This document shows positions 2,044 through 2,558 of a stretch of 64,000 bases of DNA, in pieces (position 1 is the stretch's first letter; each line of letters opens with the position of its first letter). The stretch covers positions 62,001 through 126,000 of the forward strand of contig JAFSAR010000023.1 of the NCBI GenBank assembly GCA_017442225.1. Direction: 5' to 3'. This stretch comes from Clostridia bacterium. Its GTDB lineage: Bacteria > Bacillota > Clostridia > Oscillospirales > Acutalibacteraceae. The position numbers and the translations under genes are program-made. The notes below the pieces were generated by a model. It saw only the letters and a program-made list of their open reading frames with translations. It ran no database searches and was not told the DNA's origin.

Positions 2044-2120
2044 GCGCCGGTAGCTCAGTTGGATAGAGCGTCTGGCTACGGACCAGAAGGTCATGGGTTC
2101 GAATCCTCTTCGGCGCGCCA
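2044..2120 (+). tRNA. tRNA-Arg (anticodon ACG)
   Basis: A 77-base cloverleaf. The acceptor stem GCGCCGG (2044-2050) pairs with TCGGCGC (2110-2116), followed by discriminator G and an encoded CCA (2118-2120). The D-arm is GCTC...GAGC. The anticodon stem TCTGG/CCAGA encloses the loop CTACGGA, giving ACG at 2078-2080; A34 is normally edited to inosine so that CGU, CGC and CGA are read. The T-loop is TTCGAAT. The T-stem ATGGG/CCTCT contains one T-C mismatch, which is slightly irregular. Its own promoter lies upstream and a terminator follows immediately. The last 21 bases are repeated downstream (see 2168-2288). Confidence 0.95.
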
Positions 2121-2157
2121 AAATAAAGTTCACTCTTTAGAGTGGACTTTATTTTTT
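2120..2157 (+). terminator. Rho-independent terminator of tRNA-Arg
   Basis: A long stem, AAAATAAAGTTCACTC with GAGTGGACTTTATTTT, has one wobble pair and a four-base loop and is followed by a T run. It starts directly after the CCA end. Confidence 0.85.
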
Positions 2158-2167
2158 GTTTCTTTGA

Positions 2168-2288
2168 GAAGAGGATTCGAAAAGCACGGTTTGCCGTAAG
2201 GCAAATTGCGAGCCTTCGGGGAAGGGTTGCAAAGTGCGTGGGCGTGTCGGCGGCGTTGCCGCCGAGCGAATCCTCTTCGGCGCGCCAA
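2168..2288. repeat. Inverted-repeat element carrying a copy of the tRNA-Arg 3' end
   Basis: A 12-bp perfect terminal inverted repeat, GAAGAGGATTCG (2168-2179) and CGAATCCTCTTC (2267-2278), bounds about 110 bp. The right end continues as an exact 22-base copy of the tRNA 3' end plus one base (2267-2288 equals 2100-2121). The interior is more GC-rich than its surroundings and holds small hairpins, such as TTGCCGTAAGGCAA and CGGCGGCGTTGCCGCCG. It has no open reading frame of note. It may be an attachment-site remnant or a non-coding repeat family; I cannot name it. Confidence 0.6.
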
Positions 2289-2321
2289 GAAAAAAGCACC
2301 GACAACGTCGATGCTTTTTTC
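2289..2321 (+). terminator. Second terminator, after the tRNA-end copy
   Basis: AAAAAAGCACCGAC pairs with GTCGATGCTTTTTT (one C-A mismatch) around a short loop and is followed by CAATG. It repeats the layout of the true tRNA: tRNA 3' end, then terminator. Confidence 0.6.
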
Positions 2322-2347
2322 AATGAAATAAATTCCTGACGGGATTT

Positions 2348-2497
2348 GTGAAATATGCTGCTGCATATGAAATAGCTATCGCTATGAAATACGCTGCGGC
2401 GTATAAGAAATTTATTTTATTTCACATTTTTGCTGCAGCAAAAATATTTCATAATTCGTAAGAATTATTTCATATTGCGTAGCAATATTTCATTGAG
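2348..2497. repeat. Symmetric array of six small hairpins
   Basis: Three short hairpins on the left are separated by GAAAT and three on the right by ATTTC, arranged around an AT-rich centre (about 2408-2422). Left stems are ATATGC/GCATAT, ATAGC/GCTAT and ATACGC/GCGTAT. Right stems are ATTTTTGC/GCAAAAAT, AATTC/GAATT and ATTGC/GCAAT. All loops are three or four bases. The GAAAT and ATTTC separators are complementary, so the whole block is also a large imperfect palindrome. It encodes no protein. It fills most of the 438-base gap between the tRNA and the next gene. Confidence 0.75.
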
Positions 2498-2558
2498 TAT
2501 GTTATAATGTTTGTAGAAGTGATATTTTTGAAGGAAACATCGCAAAGGAGAACATACT

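Follow-up and report, generated by a model that had tools for sequence, protein, structure and literature searches.

We found that the short element behind the tRNA-Arg(acg) gene of a Clostridia bacterium contig, in the 64,000-nucleotide stretch analyzed here (the window), belongs to a group of structured RNA families that carry an antisense arm matched to the T arm of the host tRNA and a second copy of the 3' part of that tRNA (the second tail). Two of these families are large and a third core was seen once, and they are present neither in Rfam nor in the papers searched. The reading that we favor, to which we give close to an even chance, is that of a structured RNA element that acts like an insertion into the T loop of the tRNA, within a family of repeats that spreads. 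The architecture is unusual and directly testable.

The element of the window

The sequence-only reading of this locus had described an exact 22-nt copy of the tRNA 3' end, an inverted copy of part of it at 2168 to 2179, and a hairpin terminator after both the tRNA and the copy. The three descriptions held (Table 1). A repeat comparison confirmed that the direct copy is exact (2100 to 2121 and 2267 to 2288), and chance is ruled out for a repeat of this length at a distance of 167 nt. The inverted copy is real and longer than described, extending to 14 nt (2168 to 2181) when set against the tRNA itself (2098 to 2111) and to 12 nt against the direct copy (2267 to 2278). The first 12 nt of the sense copy can pair with the antisense arm and form helix P1. 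Hairpins with T runs are found behind both the tRNA and the copy; the sequence of the first is the same in the genomes G004 and G075 and differs in relatives with an empty site, and that of the second recurs in these genomes as a separate repeat, with many unlinked matches (query positions 129 to 170).

Table 1. Features of the element and its host gene in the window (positions within the 64,000-nucleotide stretch)
Feature	Position	Strand	Description
tRNA-Arg(acg), host gene with first tail	2044..2120	+	Intact, CCA encoded; ARAGORN; Rfam tRNA, 58.9 bits
First terminator-like hairpin and T run	2120..2160 (hairpin and T run 2120-2155)	+	Arms of 17 nt, complementarity 94%
Antisense arm	2168..2181	+	14 nt, exact complement of tRNA nt 54 onward (T loop, T-stem 3' strand)
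Family 1 structured core	2182..2266	+	P2 (GCAC/GTGC), P3, P4, linker, P5; fold, covariation
Sense copy (second tail)	2267..2288	+	tRNA nt 56 through CCA; 22 nt exact, 21 nt to CCA
Second terminator-like hairpin	2289..2321	+	15-nt arms, then T run

The stretch from 2160 to 2330 folds much better than its shuffled versions (z = -4.84, with 0 of 200 shuffles as good), and the window copy (L001) matches the covariance model of its family with 106.7 bits. Rfam scans of the window and of 12 relatives assigned the element to no family.

The minus strand contains an ORF of 106 amino acids (2003 to 2323, containing IRTHDLLVRSQTLYPTELPA) that is antisense to the tRNA and the element and is very probably spurious. 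Past the second terminator, two Gut-1-like (RF01706) matches face each other, at 2321 to 2395 (plus strand) and 2441 to 2509 (minus strand), scoring 47.6 and 43.7, slightly less than the gathering score of 50. Palindromic strings akin to them lie behind many tRNAs in relatives (L012, L013, L036, and L156).

Copies behind other tRNA genes

A repeat family had been regarded as unlikely in the event that the sequence was unique to this locus. It is not, and the repeat interpretation survives: the search for copies beside other tRNA genes found them in the same genome and in more than 200 places in related genomes. In the genome of the window, further interior copies lie behind tRNA-Ser(gct) (L002), tRNA-Arg(tct) (L003), and tRNA-Gln(ctg) (L089), and one more with Glu-type arms (L004) lies near a contig start; the inverted arm of these other copies fits the local tRNA and not tRNA-Arg(acg). 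The plan of this group (family 1) is a conserved core of about 85 nt between a 5' antisense arm and a 3' sense copy, and copies that share a core have been found next to 25 or more tRNA species, as well as next to tmRNA, always on the 3' side.

A covariance model of family 1 (R1) found about 135 copies in 37 of the 70 genomes of the genus, with up to 16 per genome, and matches in only 12 of the 295 genomes of the order. Some of the weakest matches at the order level have no tRNA context and are likely due to chance; those in G132, G148, G186, G188, G265, and G286 lie behind a tRNA or tmRNA and have fitted arms. The core is also present in four gut or rumen MAGs labeled as Clostridia, Oscillospiraceae, or Clostridiaceae. 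In plasmid and phage collections the element had no match, and the viral contigs that carry the P4 hairpin proved to be junctions of a prophage with a tRNA, or to contain other repeats. Paper searches found no description of the element, including in the part of PMC8040213 that was covered.

When the whole phylum was searched, an exact match to the P4 hairpin was retrieved from one further genome (G100), in 15 repeats. These repeats have the hairpin ACAGTCCGGTGGACTGT in common with P4, and the 10 that were read (L216 to L225) are intergenic and adjoin no tRNAs. Upstream they carry GCGCTCTGAGAGGG, as in family 2 (see below), and they could be a tRNA-free relative.

The comparison of occupied and empty sites showed that relatives have empty sites with a single terminator at tRNA-Arg(acg), and also truncated copies. 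The distribution is patchy even between close relatives, which carry from 0 to 16 copies, and cores at different tRNAs have a median identity of 0.69 within a genome versus 0.62 between genomes. Because terminators vary by species, these comparisons did not yield exact insertion boundaries. As in dispersed repeats, similar copies are found at different loci, with occupied and empty sites among relatives; constant terminal inverted repeats matching a transposase, as expected of MITE-like elements, are not found, and the arms change with the host tRNA. As for a possible mover, most genomes rich in copies lack reverse transcriptase (RVT_1), and genes for Y1 transposase (Y1_Tnp) show no association with the copies. 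Among the options of the sequence-only reading, a mobile noncoding repeat that targets tRNA ends comes closest, being supported by the presence of one core behind so many tRNA species, the patchiness, and the empty sites, from which we infer the mobility itself. Copies would spread with arms that come from, or are quickly refitted to, the new host tRNA.

A second family and a third core

When relatives were searched for an empty site behind tRNA-Arg(acg), a different core came up at the same position. The covariance model of this family 2 (R2) found it in 39 of the 70 genomes of the genus and in 34 of the 295 genomes of the order, distributed among 20 genera; jointly, families 1 and 2 are present in 54 of the 70 genus genomes. 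One genome (G304) has 12 copies of family 2 in an assembly of three contigs, which counts against assembly artifacts. The antisense arm of this family covers approximately tRNA nt 51 to 64 and its sense copy starts at nt 59, being matched to the CCA in at least 38 of 46 genus loci. Across the order, a tRNA or tmRNA was detectable at 36 loci, and at 34 of them the element has an arm to it that is 9 nt or longer. The third core, seen at one tRNA (L168), repeats the plan of arm, core, and tail.

In ten genomes, a family 2 copy lies behind tRNA-Thr(tgt), with the matched core beginning 29 to 33 nt past the CCA. This distance is too short to hold a terminator; hence, these copies should be cotranscribed with the tRNA. 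In the three of these loci shown in full, tRNA-Tyr(gta) is the next gene on the same strand. The sense copy is intact in 9 of the 10 copies, and the changes in the arm mostly track an A/G change at nt 57 of the tRNA.

Structure and strand

Among the 20 hand-picked copies of family 1, 19 of the 29 consensus pairs have compensatory changes on both sides. With the full alignments, two-sided changes are found in 22 of 29 pairs in family 1 and 35 of 42 in family 2, and standard pairs make up 96.3% and 92.3% of the cells, respectively; no shuffle equaled the real values, and slid structures were only 27 to 45% paired. On the tRNA-sense strand, G-U pairs outnumber A-C pairs by 142 to 22 (family 1) and 130 to 30 (family 2), counts that are biased toward this result by the fitting of the alignments to RNA models, and, independently of this fitting, individual G-U pairs are kept in most sequences. 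Judged from the sequences, these G-U pairs point to an RNA on the tRNA strand as the functional form. The idea of a decoy RNA, raised at the outset, was right as to the form, which looks like RNA, the role as a decoy being a speculative one.

Arms fitted to the host tRNA

The arm statistics of family 1 are based on 85 genus copies with a recognizable tRNA. Across these copies, the 5' arm complements the host tRNA in a single fixed register, with an agreement per position of 0.82 to 1.00 at nt 54 to 66 that falls to 0.55, 0.38, and 0.29 immediately after, so that the arm spans the T loop and the 3' strand of the T stem. The sense copy begins at tRNA nt 56. The tRNA next to the element was the best or tied match of the arm in 72 of the 85 copies, and the arm is fully pairable (Watson-Crick or G-U) with nt 54 to 64 of its own tRNA in 77, compared with 6.2% for other tRNA species. 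In 25 pairs of copies that sit at different tRNAs but have cores at least 88% identical, the positions at which the two tRNAs differ were scored; the arms agree with their own tRNA at 96% of these positions and with the other tRNA at 2%. Such near-identical cores with arms for their own tRNA indicate that the fitting of the arm is fast relative to core divergence. The arm of one copy at tRNA Ala-cgc (L110) is a better fit to Ala-ggc, as though it had been carried over from there.

Of the 85 copies, 34 have a sense copy that reaches the CCA, and the others have a shorter one. Where the sense copy is poor (41 copies), the antisense arm has an agreement of 0.90 to 1.00 at nt 54 to 66, compared with 0.34 to 0.73 for the sense copy at nt 62 to 66; the arm is thus kept where the sense copy is poor, and the retained feature is the pairing with the tRNA, beyond the internal helix P1. 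Tandem units of tail, terminator, arm, and core are common, and the last units end at varying points. Short sense copies, initially taken for decayed remnants, may rather be the primitive state, with long ones arising as the unit duplicated in tandem.

Predicted folding and proposed mechanism

Minimum-energy folds take no account of the tRNA folding first, while transcription is still under way, and for the most part they reproduce the complementarity. In such folds of read-through transcripts, the T-arm strand pairs with the antisense arm in 67 of 74 family 1 loci, and, where there is a full second tail, the acceptor 5' strand pairs with this second tail in 60 of 66 loci (31 of 33 in family 1 and 29 of 33 in family 2) and with the first tail in none (0 of 33 in each family). 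The predicted fold is a cloverleaf in which the first tail, the terminator, the antisense arm, and the core form a T-loop insertion. The minimum-energy fold of the whole transcript of the window copy did not rebuild the cloverleaf, and kinetics could favor the first tRNA over the rebuilt one.

In the mechanism that we propose, the tRNA is followed in most cases by a terminator and then by the antisense arm, the folded core, and the second tRNA 3' part. Most transcripts would end at the first terminator and yield a normal tRNA. In a run-on transcript, the antisense arm would pair with approximately nt 54 to 66 of the tRNA, removing the first tail from play, the core would fold independently, and a complete second tail would pair with the tRNA 5' half and re-form the cloverleaf, the element then being lodged in the T loop, between nt 55 and nt 56 in family 1 and between nt 58 and nt 59 in family 2. 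This refolding is a prediction of the model, and about half of the family 1 copies would not rebuild the cloverleaf because they have no complete second tail. By rebuilding the tRNA, the second tail would let an essential gene tolerate the insertion with little harm, even without a preceding terminator, and such harmless lodging would be the reason for the arms. An unlikely extension of this proposal is that the elements form a novel class of intron-like RNA in bacteria, with the T loop of tRNA and tmRNA genes as its site. Such an RNA would have a guide arm fitted to its host tRNA, would be either excised from run-on transcripts or tolerated in them thanks to the tRNA rebuilt by the second tail, and would spread between tRNA genes by refitting its guide.

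Alternative explanations

Conservation is highest in the antisense arm, which persists even where there is no full second tail, as would suit a regulator whose 3'-trailer RNA pairs with the T arm in cis or in trans, blocking folding or maturation or exposing the run-on pre-tRNA to decay, with the sense arm as the competing partner that sets the switch. The plan common to two cores and to the third seen once and the pairing of arm and tRNA favored in 67 of the 74 predicted folds are also consistent with regulation. However, a distribution as patchy as 0 to 16 copies among close relatives, the likeness of copies of the same genome across tRNAs, the position of many copies behind a terminator, where little RNA is expected, and the absence of a consistent downstream gene at the loci read make this explanation rather improbable. 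In the case of a true intron, the run-on transcript would lose the sequence from the first tail through the end of the core, and the second tail would be ligated to nt 55 (or 58). Such an intron would agree with the cloverleaf and insertion of the folds, with the T-loop boundaries fixed at nt 56 or 59, and with the copy of the Thr-Tyr operon, which is predicted to be transcribed and has an intact second tail. Yet the first tail is intact nearly everywhere and the second often degenerate, so that a second exon is not generally needed, and Rfam scans give no known ribozyme or splice motif; we consider it highly unlikely. Given a proximal tRNA that is already complete at almost every locus and a second tail that is often poor, we set aside obligatory splicing.

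The first interpretation offered for this locus was an att remnant. Crossover by a tyrosine integrase in the T loop would leave a second tRNA 3' end, and the element would be a mini-integrative element, a satellite, or a scar. The sense copy does run from a fixed T-loop position through the CCA, as in tRNA-integrated islands (PMC4383910), and is a displaced copy of the 3' end downstream of a regenerated tRNA (22 nt in the window; elsewhere starting at nt 56 or 59). The same tRNAs serve as attachment sites for prophages, with an integrase gene and a partial tRNA directly before the elements at L116, L227, L229, L232, L237, L273, and L312, but their crossover lies upstream in the tRNA, and tail and element stay together. 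What separates the two copies is only the terminator, the arm, and a structured core of 85 to 130 nt, a conserved, covarying RNA without an ORF, integrase, or island DNA, and the model predicts neither the inverted arm, which is the best-conserved part, nor its retention beside a poor sense copy. The att option is therefore unsupported, and we regard it as distinctly unlikely. Template switching in replication can correct inverted repeats that are separated by some 50 nt, and such correction could keep the arms matched in a DNA-level repeat (MITE or REP-like single-stranded-DNA hairpins) whose RNA has no role. Many kinds of repeats, such as Gut-1-like units, crowd these genomes, and tandem units with cut-off ends are common. 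However, the sharp boundary of the arm at the edge of the T stem, the conserved G-U pairs and strand asymmetry, and the constant orientation relative to the tRNA point to RNA, and Y1 transposase genes are not associated, making a DNA-level repeat very improbable.

Relation to known systems

T-box riboswitches lie upstream of the gene that they regulate and pair with the anticodon and the CCA end of a tRNA. Our element would likewise be a cis RNA that recognizes a particular tRNA by base pairing, but it lies behind the tRNA gene with its antisense arm on nt 54 to 66 (T arm), and the Rfam scan gave no T-box match at the window element. It resembles MITE or REP-like repeats, such as the Gut-1 units (RF01706) of the same intergenic regions, in being short, structured, multicopy, patchy, and noncoding; unlike them, it is bound to one kind of site (behind tRNA or tmRNA, in one orientation) and has host-specific arms and no fixed terminal repeats. 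Islands and prophages in tRNA and tmRNA genes (Islander) have a second tRNA 3' end downstream of the intact tRNA, which can start in the T loop (PMC4383910). The downstream 3'-end copy and the tRNA and tmRNA targets are shared with these islands, whereas the size of 100 to 150 nt, the lack of genes or an integrase, the RNA fold between the copies, and the extra antisense arm are not. Like the tRNA introns of archaea and eukaryotes (PMC4090602) and the bacterial group I introns in tRNAs, the element has a predicted placement inside the tRNA and an arm that pairs across the junction. In contrast to tRNA introns, its tRNA keeps an intact first tail and the gene functions without splicing, and in the Rfam scans the element matches no known intron or ribozyme family.

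If the T-loop insertion reading is true, common gut bacteria have a large RNA family with arms tailor-made for each neighboring tRNA. It would become testable how such elements enter essential tRNA genes harmlessly and refit their arms on moving, and whether bacteria control or protect their tRNAs through antisense pairing with the T arm. These elements would also account for the abundance of tRNA-tail fragments in these genomes, which annotation pipelines may take for island ends or partial tRNA genes.

Other repeats at tRNA loci

Behind a tRNA-Arg(ccg) gene (L357, 1150 to 2165; G232:C43), about 1 kb of other DNA splits a tandem array of elements, and similar sequence (ATAAAGCAGAT and ATCTGCTTTAT) is found inverted at both ends of this insert. 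A further type of tRNA-tail repeat, with units of about 100 nt that each close with a copy of the tRNA 3' end (CTCTGTCTCCACCA or TCCACCA) and do not contain the element core, is found at L013 (1590 to 1850), at L005 (1300 to 1480), and upstream of the element at L151. At another locus (L328; G004:C45), several tandem fragments of the 5' half of tRNA-Arg lie upstream of a complete tRNA-Arg, mirroring the copying of the 3' end.
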